50,627 nt of DNA from contig CANQFE010000004.1 of the NCBI GenBank assembly GCA_947598285.1, positions 1-50,627 of the forward strand. The letters run 5' to 3'. Positions 1-50,627 of this stretch are shown piece after piece; positions within the stretch are counted from its first letter, which is position 1, and each line of letters starts with the position of its first letter. Under the pieces are notes generated by a model. It worked only from the letters and a program-made list of their open reading frames with translations. It ran no database searches and had not been told where the DNA came from. Made by a program: the position numbers and the translations under genes. The DNA comes from an uncultured Bacilli bacterium (GTDB taxonomy: Bacteria; Bacillota_I; Bacilli_A; RF39; UBA660).

Positions 1-107
1 AATGTTTTATACAAGAAAACTCCTGTGATTAATAACACACAAGCTATTGTAAATAGAATAATACTTTTTTGATTTTTATTGTTCTCTTTAAACTTTTGTA
101 ATTTCAT
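1..107 (-). CDS. Surface protein with N-terminal membrane anchor, 5' end only (runs off window start)
   Basis: Reverse strand reads MKLQKFKENNKNQKSIILFTIACVLLITGVFLYKT, near-identical to the N-termini of the 13321 and 48541 genes. Confidence 0.85.
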   Translation of the reverse strand, partial: MKLQKFKENNKNQKSIILFTIACVLLITGVFLYKT

Positions 108-136
108 TTAAAAAATCACCATACCTATTTATGATG

Positions 137-168
137 ATTTTATCAATTACCCCCCCCCCAGAAGTCAA
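137..168 (-). promoter_or_regulatory. Promoter with homopolymeric G tract in spacer (C10 on + strand at 150-159)
   Basis: -35 TTGACT (163-168), -10 TAAAAT (137-142), 20-nt spacer containing G10; same layout at 13351-13382 and 48572-48603. Confidence 0.65.
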
Positions 169-197
169 TTGACATGTTGGCAATTGTTGTTTTATGA

Positions 198-227
198 TTG
201 ATTTCTTTTTCTTATGTATGTTATGAT
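198..227 (+). promoter_or_regulatory. Promoter of small-peptide (toxin-like) mRNA, copy 1
   Basis: TTGATT-N18-TATGAT, conserved in copy 2 at 13414-13443. Confidence 0.6.
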
Positions 228-294: not shown

Positions 295-399
295 ATGAAG
301 AAAAGAATTTTTATTCTACAACTTATGAAATATATTACAGTAATTACCTTTTTCTTCACGATTTGTTTATTGTCCATCATCTGGGCAATTTCAAATTAA
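295..399 (+). CDS. 34-aa hydrophobic single-TM peptide, candidate type I toxin, copy 1
   Basis: MKKRIFILQLMKYITVITFFFTICLLSIIWAISN; SD-like AGAAAGGGG upstream; conserved with mostly synonymous/conservative changes in copy 2. Confidence 0.7.
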   Translation: MKKRIFILQLMKYITVITFFFTICLLSIIWAISN

Positions 400-11944: not shown

Positions 11945-13321
11945 TTAAATTATATATGGATTTTCTATTGTTCCATTTGTATTTTTAGAAACTAAAACAT
12001 CTGTTTTTAAGTATAATGTTGGATTTAAGGAGGCATTATTCGCGGCTCTTAAAAATTGAACATTGAGTTTGTAAAAATATATAACGTGTGTAGAAAAAGT
12101 ATCTGCAGAAACAGAATTTAAAGTATAACCAGTTATATCAGACATCCAATTATTAGAATAACAAATTTCATTCATAAGATTTACAGATTGACTTATCTTT
12201 ACAGAACAACCTCTAGGCAAAGACGAATAGATATAATCGGACATATATGGTAAGGCAATCCTTCCTTTCCATAAAATAGTTCTAGGTACATTATCATTAC
12301 ATGAAGTACCAGAATTGCATGTTTTACTTAATCGATTACTTCTTTCATCATTATAAAATATTTGGGCTGTATAATCTTTCGAATCACTCATATTTAAAGC
12401 TCCTGTATTCCAAGTGACTGTATCTATCAATTCATCAACTTGTTTTAAACCTCTTATCTTATTTCCATTCTTTCCATCAAAACTACAAGAATCTTTTTGA
12501 TTAACATATGTTCCATCGTCCTGTGGAATGACTTTAGTATAACAAGTTTGATTGATTTTGTTTTGAGAATAATAATCATTTAACACTTGATTTACATCGG
12601 AAGTAGACCATTCATTGACTCCATATCCCTTATTTACAGTATTTTCAGAACTGTCCCAAGCATACATTCCAATACTATCATTTCTTATTAGTTTTATTCT
12701 TTGGCCTTCTGGAGTATTGACTAATCCGATGATTCTCCATAATTCATGATTAAACCACACATAATTATCTGGATTACTCCCTGCATATCTTAATTCTTCT
12801 TGTTTTAAAAGATCTTGTTTTTCTTTTTCTTCTGTATATGTTATTTCGGCAGCTTCATGACTTACTTTATATAAGCCTGATTCTCCACTATCTTCTTCTT
12901 TGATTGGTACTTCTTTTATTTTATCTATAAAGTTTTCTCCACTTTCAAAATATAACACACATTTTGTATGGCTGGTTAATATTCCTTCTACTGTGATACT
13001 TCCATCTTCTCTATGATACCAGGGAATAATATTATCATCTTTCTTTCCTAATTTTCCACAGTAACTTTCTTTTGAATTAAAAACATAATTACTTCCTTTT
13101 TGAGGTACTTCTTTACTTAATACTCCATCAACATAAAATGCAAAATAGACATCTCCGGGATCACTTACATTTCCATTAATAAGATCTTCATTTTCTATGA
13201 CTTGAAAGCTTGCAAATGTTTTATATAGAAAAACTCCTGTGATGAATAACACACATGCTATGGTAAAGATTATGATATATTTTTGTCTGTTATTTTCTTC
13301 TTTAAACTTTTGTAATTTCAT
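11945..13321 (-). CDS. Membrane-anchored surface protein, shared N-terminal anchor cassette
   Basis: MKLQKFKEENNRQKYIIIFTIACVLFITGVFLYKTFASF anchor; 'YVWFNHELWRIIGLV' ectodomain. Confidence 0.8.
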   Translation of the reverse strand: MKLQKFKEENNRQKYIIIFTIACVLFITGVFLYKTFASFQVIENEDLINGNVSDPGDVYFAFYVDGVLSKEVPQKGSNYVFNSKESYCGKLGKKDDNIIPWYHREDGSITVEGILTSHTKCVLYFESGENFIDKIKEVPIKEEDSGESGLYKVSHEAAEITYTEEKEKQDLLKQEELRYAGSNPDNYVWFNHELWRIIGLVNTPEGQRIKLIRNDSIGMYAWDSSENTVNKGYGVNEWSTSDVNQVLNDYYSQNKINQTCYTKVIPQDDGTYVNQKDSCSFDGKNGNKIRGLKQVDELIDTVTWNTGALNMSDSKDYTAQIFYNDERSNRLSKTCNSGTSCNDNVPRTILWKGRIALPYMSDYIYSSLPRGCSVKISQSVNLMNEICYSNNWMSDITGYTLNSVSADTFSTHVIYFYKLNVQFLRAANNASLNPTLYLKTDVLVSKNTNGTIENPYII

Positions 13322-13327
13322 TTAAAA

Positions 13328-13382
13328 AATCACCATACCTATTTATGATGATTTTATCAAATACCCCCCCCCCAGAGGTCAA
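13328..13382 (-). promoter_or_regulatory. Promoter with homopolymeric G tract in spacer (C10 at 13364-13373) and inverted repeat at transcription start
   Basis: -35 TTGACC (13377-13382), -10 TAAAAT (13351-13356), spacer 20 nt; IR AATCACCATA/TATGATGATT 13328-13353. Confidence 0.65.
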
Positions 13383-13413
13383 TTTACATGAGTTGGGAAT
13401 TATTATTTTATGA

Positions 13414-13443
13414 TTGATTTATTTCTTTTAAGTGTGCTATGAT
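13414..13443 (+). promoter_or_regulatory. Promoter of small-peptide mRNA, copy 2
   Basis: TTGATT-N18-TATGAT. Confidence 0.6.
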
Positions 13444-13510
13444 TATTTTAAGGAAGTCATTCGTGGCTAGTGCCTACCACTTCTTATCTTTTTTAGAAAG
13501 GAGTGGTCAT

Positions 13511-13615
13511 ATGAAGAAAAGAATCTTTATTTTGCATCTTATGCGTTACATCCTTGGTATTACTTTTTTTCTTACAATTTGTTTGTTGTCCATTATCTGG
13601 GCAATTGCAAATTAA
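13511..13615 (+). CDS. 34-aa hydrophobic peptide, candidate type I toxin, copy 2
   Basis: MKKRIFILHLMRYILGITFFLTICLLSIIWAIAN. Confidence 0.7.
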   Translation: MKKRIFILHLMRYILGITFFLTICLLSIIWAIAN

Positions 13616-13730
13616 AAAAGGCACTTAATCTTTCTTTAAAGGTTAAATGCCTTATCCCAATATAATGGTAGGCATTAGCAAGCAAACACGAATGCCTTCC
13701 TTTTTTTATTTTATGAAGTTTCCTTCATCT
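13612..13730 (-). ncRNA. Putative cis-antisense antitoxin RNA, copy 2
   Basis: Minus-strand promoter TTGCCA (13760-13765)-N17-TAAAAT (13737-13742); terminator hairpin 13620-13651 with minus-strand U-run. Confidence 0.6.
13670..13712 (+). terminator. Terminator of peptide mRNA, copy 2
   Basis: AGGCATT...AATGCCT then TCCTTTTTTTATTTT. Confidence 0.6.
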
Positions 13731-46627: not shown

Positions 46628-48541
46628 TTAAGGAGATAAAACAACACGGAAACTAAAAGCAGTATCTGCTTGCCCATTGACACCATGAAATGCATAAACG
46701 CCTGAATCTGTACCATCTCCATATCCTCCACCACGTCTGAACCATGGGTTACTTGAAACTATAAAATAGGCTAAATCAGCATTGTAACTTCCGATAAATC
46801 TTGCTGAAGTTCCACCATTATATGAAACACGGTAAAACGGTCCTAACTCTTTGGTAGCATCTCCCAATACTCCTCTTTGATATTCTTGATCTATTGTTTT
46901 GTAATCATATAAATCATAATATTTTGAAGATGACCATTCTTTTCCATTTGTATTTGTTTTATTTTCACCACAATTACTACCCCTTCCACCATTTTCTTTG
47001 CAATTACTATATAGCCCTTTAAATCCTGAATTATTGGAAGAATCAGCTCCACTTGCTGGAGATGAAGATGCATTACTGCCTTGCATTACCCCCATGACAC
47101 AATCCCAGGCTCCTCCTGCCATATCATAGATTCCACTGTAATTTCCAGTGGTACTTGATTGTACACTAGACGAATTATAATAATGATATCCATTGTCTCC
47201 ATCTTGATTTAACGTTGTTGAATCTGTACTATTATATACTGGACTTCCTGCTGTTGGTACATTCTTTGCACTATATCCTGTAATATAATCACTATTATTA
47301 TTAATCCTTACTTCTTCACATTTTTCATTAGTACATCTACCAAACTTCGAATTTGTTAAATAAGTGACTGCTCCCCATTCACTGTTTTTCATCATGTGAC
47401 TTTCTAATTCACGTTTGTAATTATATGATGTATAAAAGGCGTTAGCTATTTGTATTCCTCTCCAACTATACACATTTGGTTTGATGATGACTTTTGATGG
47501 TTCTTCTTTATTCGTATTGCTAGTATTTTCTGCATTTGCTTTGGTCCAATTACTTGTTGTAATTTCTTTTGTTGTATCACTATTTTGATTATATCCTGTT
47601 TCAAATTTTCCGACCCAGAATCCATTACTATCAAAAGCTTCAAAAGCGGGATGAGTGATAGAATCTCCTTTTTTACTTCCTTGTTTATTGCCACTATCTT
47701 TTGTTTCAAATGCGATTTCAAAAACAGAGCTTTCTCCTTTATTTCCTACTTTATTAGTTGCTTTCATCGCTTCATAAACTTCTGTTACATTTGTTTTATT
47801 TCCTAATTCTGTTACACTAGTATATACTGTATATGTACTTTCATCTTCTTGTAATACATATCGATATCTTGGAATCCATACAAAATAACTTTCAATATCT
47901 TTTTCTTTGATTTCTTCTCCTGGTGTATAGTTATCAACTACTCCATCTCTTAATATCACTGCATTCGCCCATTGCTGTTTCCCATAGTTATACCATTCAC
48001 TAGTAATATCTGCTTTCTCTACTTTTCCTGCTTGTGCTCCAACATAAGTTATATCACTTGGTTTTTCATCTTCTGATATAACCACTGGTACTAATCTTCC
48101 ATTCATTAAATCTGGTATCGCTCCATTTAATGTATCTTCTTCATAGATCTTCTTAAAATGTAAATAACATTTCGTTTTCGTTGTTGTAATATTGGATAGA
48201 TATGGTCCCCATCTTTCATTATCCCAATTGATTCTACTTACTTTCTCTCCTGTTGTCATATCTTTGCAATAACTACTACTAGTATCTAAACTATATCCTT
48301 CTTCTTTCTTTGGTGCTGTCTTTGATATTTTATCTTCTTTTCCATCATCGATATAAAAGGCAAACTCTAAATCTCCTATATCTTGTACTTCTCCATTTAT
48401 GATATCTTCATTTAGATTTGTTTGAAAGATGGCAAATGTTTTATAGATGAAAACTCCTGTGATCAATAATACACAAGCTATCGTAAATATGATTATTACT
48501 TTTTGATTTTTATTGTTCTCTTTAAATTTTTGTAATTTCAT
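46628..48541 (-). CDS. Membrane-anchored surface protein with C-terminal FGE-sulfatase/C-type-lectin-like domain
   Basis: Shared MKLQKFKE anchor; HPAFEAFDSNGFWVGKFETG, YSGIYDMAGGAWDCVMGV, SFRVVLSP. Confidence 0.8.
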   Translation of the reverse strand: MKLQKFKENNKNQKVIIIFTIACVLLITGVFIYKTFAIFQTNLNEDIINGEVQDIGDLEFAFYIDDGKEDKISKTAPKKEEGYSLDTSSSYCKDMTTGEKVSRINWDNERWGPYLSNITTTKTKCYLHFKKIYEEDTLNGAIPDLMNGRLVPVVISEDEKPSDITYVGAQAGKVEKADITSEWYNYGKQQWANAVILRDGVVDNYTPGEEIKEKDIESYFVWIPRYRYVLQEDESTYTVYTSVTELGNKTNVTEVYEAMKATNKVGNKGESSVFEIAFETKDSGNKQGSKKGDSITHPAFEAFDSNGFWVGKFETGYNQNSDTTKEITTSNWTKANAENTSNTNKEEPSKVIIKPNVYSWRGIQIANAFYTSYNYKRELESHMMKNSEWGAVTYLTNSKFGRCTNEKCEEVRINNNSDYITGYSAKNVPTAGSPVYNSTDSTTLNQDGDNGYHYYNSSSVQSSTTGNYSGIYDMAGGAWDCVMGVMQGSNASSSPASGADSSNNSGFKGLYSNCKENGGRGSNCGENKTNTNGKEWSSSKYYDLYDYKTIDQEYQRGVLGDATKELGPFYRVSYNGGTSARFIGSYNADLAYFIVSSNPWFRRGGGYGDGTDSGVYAFHGVNGQADTAFSFRVVLSP

Positions 48542-48548
48542 ATTAAAA

Positions 48549-48603
48549 AATCACCATACCTATTTATGATGATTCTACCAAATACCCCCCCCCCAGAGGT
48601 CAA
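48549..48603 (-). promoter_or_regulatory. Promoter with homopolymeric G tract in spacer (C10 at 48585-48594)
   Basis: -35 TTGACC (48598-48603), -10 TAGAAT (48572-48577), 20-nt spacer. Confidence 0.65.
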
Positions 48604-48660: not shown

Positions 48661-50627
48661 TTAAAAATTCTTGATTGGTGTTAAAGCAATACGAAAACCA
48701 TAATTATTGGATGTGATCACTCCTCCTGTAATGCTACTAAATGCTCCTAACCCTGCATCTGTTCCATAAAAGAATGCCATACCTCTTACAAACCATGAAT
48801 GTGTATCTACTACCATATTTGCTGCATCTGCATAATAACCACTTATCGAGCGAAGAGTAGTTTTGCCTAAATAATTTGCAGTATAAAATGGCCCTAGTTC
48901 TTTCGTTGCATCTCCCAAGATTCCATTTTTATAATTTGTATCGATTGTATCATAATCATACAAATCATAATATTTCGCTTCAGGAAAAGCATCATTAAAT
49001 CCTGAATTATCATTACTAGGATTCCCATTTTCATCTTTCATAACACCCATCACATACTCATAAACTCCGCCTGACATATCATAAATCCCACTATAATTCC
49101 CAGTAGTGCTTGAAACATTACTGAAAGGATTAAAATAATTATTGATGTATGTTCCATCTTGACTCAATTCCGTTACCTCGTATTTATTACATTCTTCATT
49201 GGAAGAAGTATACCCACAAGTTGGAGCATTTTTAGAAGAAGAACCAGTAATAAGGTTATGCGAATTATTAATTCTTACTTCTTCACAAGTGACTCCATTA
49301 CATCTTCCATATCTTGAATTTGTTAAATAGGCTACTGCTCCCCATTCACTGTTCTTCATCATATGACTATCTAAATTATCTCTTTGATAGTTATAACTAT
49401 TTAAATGGGCATTTGAAGCATTAATTCTAGACCAACCATAAACATTTGGTTTAATAATTACTTTATCTTTTGCAAATTCATTTTTTTGAGCATCATCTTT
49501 ACTTTTAGCACCTAAGTATCCTGTATCAAATTTACCTACCCAAAAGCCTGTTGATCCTTCAAATGCGGTAAAAGCTGGATGAGTCATATAATCTCCTACT
49601 TTACAATCTCCATTATCACTTGTTGTTGGTGTTTTACATTCTTTATATCCATTTACTGTATTATAATCCCCAAATTTGATTTTGATTTCTTGGTTATTAT
49701 TAGGAACACTTGCACTCGATGGTATATTTCCTAAATTTATGACTTCCTTATAGTTTCCTAAATTAAATAATTGATATCTATATTTTGGGATCCACACAAA
49801 ATAACTTTCAATCACATCTTCTGGTATCACTTCTTTTGGTTCATAATCTTCATTTTGTTTATTGGTAAAATCAACATATTTTAATAAACCATTACTGTCT
49901 GTAATTTTAATATCTTCTGTCATTTTTGCTATTTCTTCTTCACTGATTGCTCGATTAAAGATTGCTGCTTGTTTGACATCAATATTTGCAAAACCTAAAT
50001 GATTACCATTTGGTTGGGGATTTGCTCCTATAAAAATAGACATTGTAGATTGAGTAATATTTCCTGAATATGTTTGATTATCCATCTCTTCACCATTTAT
50101 ATATAGTTTTAAATTTGAACCGTTGTATACCAATATTATACAATAATAATTTTGAGATATTGATTCTTCATTTTTGGGCGTATAAGTAGCATAATGATAG
50201 GTATCTGTATAAATAAATCCTCGTAACTGATTATTATCTGTTAATTCTATTCCTAATCCTGATGTTTCTTGATTTCCTAATATCACTTGATATTTACCAC
50301 CACTATTTATTTTGACATTGATTGCTATTGTTACTTCATTTTTAAAATCATAGTTTTCTAATCCTAAATCAATATAATCATCTTGCCCATCTAATGTTAC
50401 ATGATCATTAGATAAAGTAGCTCCTCCATATATTTTTCCATAGGCACTTAAACTTTCATAACTATTTTGTAAGATGATACTATTTGCCCATTCTTTGTTG
50501 GAATAACTATACCATGCCTCTTTTAAATCTGCTTTTCTTACTGTTCCTTCATTATCTATTGTCACTGGTGTTAAGTCTCCCTTTATCACTGGATCCATTC
50601 CATTTAATATCCCTTCATGATATTCTT
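48661..50627 (-). CDS. Surface protein with LamG/concanavalin-like domain and C-terminal FGE-like domain (5' end outside window)
   Basis: VTLDGQDDYIDLGLENYDFKNEVTIAINVKIN...LKLYINGEEMDNQ LamG pattern; YSGIYDMSGGVYEYVMGV; paralog of 46628 gene. Confidence 0.8.
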   Translation of the reverse strand, partial: EYHEGILNGMDPVIKGDLTPVTIDNEGTVRKADLKEAWYSYSNKEWANSIILQNSYESLSAYGKIYGGATLSNDHVTLDGQDDYIDLGLENYDFKNEVTIAINVKINSGGKYQVILGNQETSGLGIELTDNNQLRGFIYTDTYHYATYTPKNEESISQNYYCIILVYNGSNLKLYINGEEMDNQTYSGNITQSTMSIFIGANPQPNGNHLGFANIDVKQAAIFNRAISEEEIAKMTEDIKITDSNGLLKYVDFTNKQNEDYEPKEVIPEDVIESYFVWIPKYRYQLFNLGNYKEVINLGNIPSSASVPNNNQEIKIKFGDYNTVNGYKECKTPTTSDNGDCKVGDYMTHPAFTAFEGSTGFWVGKFDTGYLGAKSKDDAQKNEFAKDKVIIKPNVYGWSRINASNAHLNSYNYQRDNLDSHMMKNSEWGAVAYLTNSRYGRCNGVTCEEVRINNSHNLITGSSSKNAPTCGYTSSNEECNKYEVTELSQDGTYINNYFNPFSNVSSTTGNYSGIYDMSGGVYEYVMGVMKDENGNPSNDNSGFNDAFPEAKYYDLYDYDTIDTNYKNGILGDATKELGPFYTANYLGKTTLRSISGYYADAANMVVDTHSWFVRGMAFFYGTDAGLGAFSSITGGVITSNNYGFRIALTPIKNF

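Follow-up and report, generated by a model that had tools for sequence, protein, structure and literature searches.

Poly-G promoter spacers paired with start-site hairpins form a probable phase-variable surface-protein system in uncultured gut Bacilli

The DNA analysed here (the window, 50,627 nucleotides) is contig 4 of a draft genome of 1.41 Mb in 99 contigs from an uncultured Bacilli bacterium. It carries three members of a large set of promoters in which a tract of about ten G residues lies between the −35 and −10 elements, ahead of genes for surface proteins. We conclude that these are probably slipped-strand phase-variable promoters of the sigma70 type, weak or OFF at the G10 length, with a hairpin against read-through transcription in most copies. 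Two parts of this picture go beyond the initial annotation of the window, namely the covarying hairpin that extends from the −10 to the ribosome-binding region, and the presence of the promoters as a multi-locus set across the genus.

Results

Promoter anatomy and recurrence

The initial annotation described a minus-strand promoter with a G10 tract in its spacer, and direct reading agrees: from 168 to 137 the strand runs TTGACT, TCT, GGGGGGGGGG, TAATTGA and TAAAAT, with a G10 tract and a spacer of 3 + 10 + 7 = 20 (Table 1). The tract is as unexpected as was claimed, since eight-G words occur 9 times in the window against 0.14 expected and 0 shuffles reached 9. All 9 derive from three G10 tracts, that of copy 1 and those at 13364–13373 and 48585–48594. 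The two further copies lie on the same strand in the same promoter context, as had been noticed. Of the reported recurrence in two paralogs, the placement ahead of membrane-anchored paralogs holds, but the scale is about 48 copies in the genome, not three. Only 35 codons of the gene behind copy 1 lie inside the window; copies 2 and 3 are followed by whole genes.

Table 1. Positions of the features discussed (window coordinates unless a contig is named)
Feature	Position	Strand	Basis or remark
−35 hexamer TTGACT, copy 1	163..168	−	direct reading
G10 tract, copy 1	150..159	−	direct reading, eight-G word count
−10 hexamer TAAAAT of copy 1, with TGA before it (extended −10)	137..142	−	
Hairpin, copy 1, AAAATCATCATA-AATAGG-TATGGTGATTTT	112..141	−	−10.6 kcal/mol, z −4.15; covariation; position relative to −10
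Surface-protein gene start, MKLQKFKENNKNQKSIILFTIACVLLITGVFLYKT...	1..107	−	contig end cuts copy 1 gene
Divergent back-to-back promoter, TTGACA-18-TATGAT	169..198	+	adjoins −35 of copy 1
34-aa hydrophobic peptide, MKKRIFILQLMKYITVITFFFTICLLSIIWAISN	295..399	+	read from divergent promoter
Poly-G promoter, copy 2, TTGACC-TCT-G10-TATTTGA-TAAAAT	13351..13382	−	
−10/SD hairpin, copy 2	13326..13355	−	sequence class as in copy 1
458-aa membrane-anchored surface protein, MKLQKFKE family, behind copy 2	11945..13321	−	no Pfam match above cut-off
Poly-G promoter, copy 3, TTGACC-TCT-G10-TATTTGG-TAGAAT	48572..48603	−	
−10/SD hairpin, copy 3	48547..48576	−	−10.7 kcal/mol, z −3.54
637-aa membrane-anchored surface protein, MKLQKFKE family, behind copy 3	46628..48541	−	
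Co-directional gene directly upstream of copy 3	48661..50598	−	Laminin_G_3 domain; weak sub-threshold FGE-sulfatase match
MKRKMIIITSILLTSIVVLGGG.. class, intragenic tract, L007	G000:C3:23-31		
MKRKMIIITSILLTSIVVLGGG.. class, intragenic tract, L047	G000:C43:10472-10480		
MKRKMIIITSILLTSIVVLGGG.. class, intragenic tract, L057	G000:C90:3270-3278		
MKRKMIIITSILLTSIVVLGGG.. class, intragenic tract, L038	G014		

Across the source genome (G000) there are 56 tracts of G8 or more and about 48 poly-G promoters, 46 complete and 2 truncated by contig ends. The pattern TTGAC-N-TARAATCA matches 57 times, 46 with a G tract and 11 without, against 2 for the reversed control. The consensus of these promoters is TGTMAA-TTGACYTCT-G10-TAWTTGATARAATCATCATAAATAGGTATGGTGATTTTTTAAATGAAATTACAAAAGTTTAAAGAA, and the spacer of the 46 complete ones is 20 in 40 cases, 19 in 2 and 21 in 4. 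In a few copies the pads diverge, as 2+10+8 instead of 3+10+7, and the sum is still 20. Contigs C3, C9, C11, C12, C15, C33, C34, C37, C43, C65 and C72 end at most about 100 bases from one of the poly-G promoters. Such breaks are what a dispersed repeat made up of a promoter and an N-terminal coding block should cause, and the gene counts given here are therefore lower bounds.

The set recurs among relatives. Tracts of G9 or longer are found in 33 of 35 same-genus genomes (absent from G019 and G026), and 23 genomes of other families of the class hold 0–7 each. A sample of 395 genomes of the class shows promoters with a poly-G spacer in several further genera of the family (42 matches in G283, 13 in G304, 9 in G139) and sporadically beyond it. 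A scan for TTGAC-G9-TADAAT in one genome per species, a sample in which near relatives of the window may be missing, matched mainly Bacilli and Clostridia binned from gut metagenomes of rabbit, chicken and ruminants, plus Treponema ruminis, and the matches frequently precede signal-peptide or lipoprotein genes. Some relatives of the window derive from rabbit and chicken samples. Between species, the −35, the −10, the tract length (∼10 G) and the total spacer (19–20 bp) are kept, while the spacer sequence varies.

The assemblies are metagenome-type drafts in which many contigs end at these very repeats, and the G10 length might on that account be an assembly or sequencing artefact. This is almost certainly not so, given that numerous assemblies made independently contain the tracts, the complete chromosome of Treponema ruminis among them, and that runs of 8–11 bases are well inside short-read range. 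Two other candidates were rejected. For an invertible promoter, no flanking inverted repeats were found around copy 2; the long inverted pairs there lie elsewhere, one spanning 13132–13543 (86%) and the other in the divergent peptide unit described below. For carriage of the promoter by phages, we found no phage record related to copy 2 and no copy of the source genome's leader sequence in viral_contigs, where the scattered poly-G matches look unrelated.

Evidence that the tracts slip

Near-identical promoters of the source genome differ in tract length (G9, G10 and G11), and in the relative G013 promoter tracts span G10–G13. The genome holds nine other long G tracts, mostly intragenic. Two are in frame at the assembled length (L039, L045), and five others are out of frame (L047, L057, L002 twice, L013), where gaining or losing a single G would give a far longer frame; the same holds for L038 in the relative G014. 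These out-of-frame tracts, together with the promoters of near-identical sequence that differ in length, indicate that slippage occurs in the species. Poly-G slips here, and the direct evidence comes from the intragenic tracts, not from the promoter in question. The original phase-variable reading thus stands as regards a poly-G tract in a sigma70-type spacer, paralogous surface genes and independent signs of slippage in the species; what it missed were the hairpin and the length conservation.

The uniformity of the tracts could also suggest that they are fixed and serve a dedicated regulon as a structural feature or protein-binding site. Length is indeed very uniform in the genus (G10 in 117 of 148 promoters, see below), but lengths from G6 to G13 occur, identical flanks carry different lengths, same-length intragenic tracts stand out of frame, and the position of the tract within the spacer drifts between species. 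Moreover, a consensus assembly shows only the commonest length, as a comparison with tprL of Treponema pallidum makes plain, where G7–G11 occur within an isolate (PMC7864442). We regard a fixed element as very improbable.

Several further observations concern G tracts and repair. Loss of mismatch repair was rejected as a cause, because full-length MutS is present in the source genome and most relatives; besides this gene, the genome has a short separate ORF that encodes MutS N-terminal domain I alone (G000:C39:12286-12537, and in ∼17 relatives). A second phase-variable gene class, MKRKMIIITSILLTSIVVLGGG.., has an intragenic G10 tract and is assembled out of frame, and G9 opens more than 500 codons (Table 1); at L007 the tract, at an edge, has the same flanks as this class. 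At G000:C1:71757-72628 (L002, L003), adjoining genes with intragenic G8 and G11 tracts (MANYISQIKLPNGTTYNVQD..) are both assembled out of frame; at G9 and G10 they would have open frames of 271 and 195 codons. In G002, G009, G010 (L108) and the source genome's L001, poly-G tracts adjoin the palindrome ATGTATACGTATACAT or a similar one instead of the usual −10; this palindrome is possibly an operator.

Spacer geometry and the expected ON length

Geometry was compared across 148 parsed genus promoters with uninterrupted tracts. TTGACN is present in 147 of them and the TG of an extended −10 in 62%. Spacers of 20 bp number 88 and those of 19 bp number 38, together 126 at 19–20, where the choice of −10 leans mildly to spacer 19; a parse without this lean misplaces the −10 in G028, which has two overlapping TATAAT, and otherwise agrees. 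Left and right pads compensate each other (correlation −0.70; variance of the sum 0.94 versus 1.49 and 1.64 for the parts), which supports TTGAC and TANAAT as the true pair.

Promoters of the genus that match TTGACA..TGNTATAAT and lack a G tract (ordinary promoters; n = 83, 17 genomes) have spacers of 17 in 45 cases, 16 in 18, 18 in 11 and 20 in 1. The earlier reasoning from an optimum near 17 nt therefore suits this organism: with ordinary promoters peaking at 17 and poly-G promoters at 19–20, the assembled state seems to lie 2–3 bp beyond the organism's own optimum, and losing 1–3 G should increase transcription. In a many-taxa scan, assembled spacer lengths show two maxima, at 16 and 19, and 17–18 is less frequent, though the search pattern favours 17–18 (57 genomes, not independent); with related genomes in the sample, these peaks are suggestive of modal states on either side of the optimum.

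The same slippage switch could have the reverse polarity, in which the G10 tract and 20-bp spacer would be the ON length, helped by the extended −10, and slippage either way would lower expression. The conservation of the total spacer across species despite differing pads fits this well, and in G008 a shorter pad is offset by a G11 tract to give a spacer of 20; conservation this tight exceeds the need of a simple OFF state. Six interrupted tracts, probably stable, retain spacers of 19–21, and the genes behind at least four of them are complete and open, as if such spacing worked. Both points count against G10 as OFF. The reverse polarity is harder to square with the single 20-bp spacer among the ordinary promoters and, suggestively, with the dip at 17–18 in the many-taxa sample. 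We consider it unlikely, though the interrupted tracts ahead of open genes keep real weight on the reading that 20 works. The conserved modal length and total spacer, which the first reading did not take up, thus leave G10 as OFF, weak or ON.

A hairpin from the −10 to the ribosome-binding region

In copy 1, the 5′ arm of the hairpin lies in the −10/start region and the 3′ arm in the Shine–Dalgarno (SD) region GGTGAT, followed by a T6 run. Hairpins of −8 kcal/mol or below occur at 63% of genus poly-G promoters versus 9% of other gene starts. Among promoters that were not selected for folding, a promoter's own arms pair at a mean of −7.5 kcal/mol, compared with −3.8 kcal/mol for arms swapped between genomes (genome-level permutation p 0.0005). 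In a set of 26 diverse hairpins, which were selected for folding, the covariation score is 0.378, versus 0.182 for shuffled and 0.07–0.14 for slid structures. No known RNA family was found at the locus above threshold.

In 59 of 75 cases the paired part of the 5′ arm ends at +7 or +8 after the −10, and 7–8 nt after the −10 is the normal position of a transcription start. In nearly all copies the 5′ arm begins inside the −10 and lies upstream of the predicted start, so that the local mRNA should be without the arm and only read-through RNA would form the hairpin. In accordance with this, the predicted unpaired probability of the SD region is 0.33 in read-through RNA and 0.62 in local RNA, and in the source species the local transcript can still form a weaker fold over the SD (−5.6 kcal/mol). 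In that species and several others a T run directly follows the stem, as in an intrinsic terminator.

An inverted repeat centred a few bases downstream of the predicted start could also act in the DNA as the operator of a dimeric regulator, or the local mRNA could itself begin with the hairpin. Against an operator, the arms change between species with pairing kept, and the non-Watson–Crick pairs of distinct stems comprise 50 T·G or G·T on the sense strand and 1 A·C (that is, antisense wobble), a wobble excess that favours sense-strand RNA over a DNA operator, although the scarcity of C in the arms also lowers the A·C count and adds to the asymmetry. Against a 5′-end hairpin stands the upstream position of the 5′ arm just described. 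Both forms of this alternative are, in our judgement, quite unlikely.

The nearest upstream ORF (at least 80 aa) is co-directional in 124 of 132 classified cases, which makes read-through a real issue, and the gene upstream of copy 3 is a possible read-through source for that copy. On modelled folds and positions, the hairpin probably insulates each switch from read-through. It appears to be an addition and not part of the definition of the switch, as poly-G promoters without a hairpin occur in G001, G017 and other species. Its detail also varies: in G028 the SD is partly in the hairpin loop, and in some copies of G008, G011, G013 and G021 no start codon follows within a short distance of the hairpin, which there looks like a terminator and not a cover for the ribosome-binding site.

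Downstream genes

The poly-G promoters of the source genome precede ∼38 distinguishable genes, most of them starting MKLQKFKE..IIIFTIACVLLITGVFLYKTFASFQ, with a short cytoplasmic head, one membrane helix and several hundred outside residues; a second group starts MKKKTIIIIGIIVILIMGMGVSFAYW. In relatives the same anchor is seen, plus proteins of TasA/camelysin-like or Laminin_G_3 type, and lipoproteins also occur. By prediction these proteins are membrane-anchored and surface-exposed. An AlphaFold2 model of the 458-aa protein, from six sequences, had a mean pLDDT of 36, which is low confidence. Genes of the genome share blocks in varying combinations; EVQDIGDLEFAFYIDD, for one, stands behind two distinct anchors. 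This points to a second source of variety, namely recombination between copies.

A divergent peptide unit beside the promoters

The motif TGT[CA]AA stands before TTGAC in 35 of the source-genome poly-G promoters tabulated. On the plus strand of the window, at 169-500 and 13380-13700, lies a divergent unit made up of a promoter, a 34-aa peptide and a leader able to pair with its own ribosome-binding site. It contains the repeats GCTAGTGCCTACCA and TGGTAGGCATTAGC, about 190 nt apart and antisense-like, and the peptide or its repeats recur near ∼10 poly-G loci of the genome. By analogy, the layout of the unit resembles that of Fst-type type I toxin–antitoxin systems; no Rfam or Pfam match to it was found above threshold.

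Discussion

Our preferred mechanism, with G10 as the low state, would run as follows. Replication would add or remove G residues in the spacer tract and thereby shift the spacing of −35 and −10. At G10 and a spacer of 20 bp, which is the state most often assembled, expression should be weak or OFF, and loss of 1–3 G would bring the spacer to 19, 18 or 17 bp and raise transcription of one of ∼48 surface proteins, such that cells of one population would display different sets of them. Transcripts from the local promoter, without the 5′ arm, would be translated, while read-through transcripts from an upstream gene would form the hairpin and hide the ribosome-binding site, and the U run behind it, where present, would probably stop transcription. 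Each switch would in this way stay independent of its co-directional neighbours. The benefit could be immune, phage or niche diversification.

The chances appear to us evenly balanced that the whole is a compound switch new to science, in which slippage promoters found genus-wide are each fused to a read-through-silencing hairpin that is lost only upon firing of that same promoter, which would let dozens of surface genes in tandem vary independently. Phase variation by slippage is known best from pathogens, and our searches of an open full-text library turned up no account of it at such a scale for uncultured Bacilli of the gut. If the proposal is true, these commensals can show very many surface states, much of their display-gene output is set by a tract length that consensus assemblies hide, and the hairpin answers the general problem of keeping tandem stochastic switches independent.

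The closest likeness to the promoter itself is with porA and opc of Neisseria meningitidis, where a homopolymer likewise lies between −35 and −10 with a surface protein downstream; in porA it is a poly-G whose length sets the amount of the outer-membrane protein (PMC3639595; PMC7864442). No hairpin from −10 to ribosome-binding site is reported for them in those two papers, whereas most copies here have one. Further, porA and opc are one locus each in a Gram-negative pathogen with a modal spacer of ∼17, in contrast to the ∼48 homologous promoters per genome, hexamers conserved genus-wide and modal spacer of 19–20 seen here.

Mycoplasmas, small and AT-rich relatives of the Bacilli, offer a second parallel in the spacer-length switching of surface genes, though with tracts of other bases and far fewer genes. 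The vlp genes are a multigene family with a poly-A tract, and we know of no insulating hairpin for vlp, maa2 or vmm. In Mycoplasma hyorhinis vlp, M. arthritidis maa2 and M. mycoides vmm, a change in the length of the −35/−10 spacer switches surface lipoprotein genes (PMC2268961). In M. gallisepticum, vlhA is a large surface-gene family in which each gene has its own repeat-bearing promoter, but the repeat is GAA and lies upstream of the core promoter (∼40 bp), not in the spacer (PMC6258824).

The tpr genes of Treponema pallidum also have poly-G near promoters of surface-protein paralogs. The tprL tract is mostly G9, ranging from G7 to G11 within one isolate, and in an E. coli reporter G8 gave higher activity than G10 (PMC7864442). 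That tract overlaps the −10 and leaves the spacer unaltered, unlike the tracts here, which lie inside the spacer.

For the hairpin, the closest known arrangement is in phage T4, where the ribosome-binding sites of gene e and I-TevI are hidden by a hairpin in a long RNA initiated upstream, and a promoter within the 5′ strand of the hairpin, a late one at gene e, gives an RNA without that strand (PMC3014915). Gene e thus shares with our system a hairpin over the ribosome-binding region in upstream RNA and a local start, here predicted, at the end of the 5′ arm. There, the arrangement serves late-gene timing; here, it would go with slippage promoters ahead of numerous bacterial surface genes, and several species add a U run.
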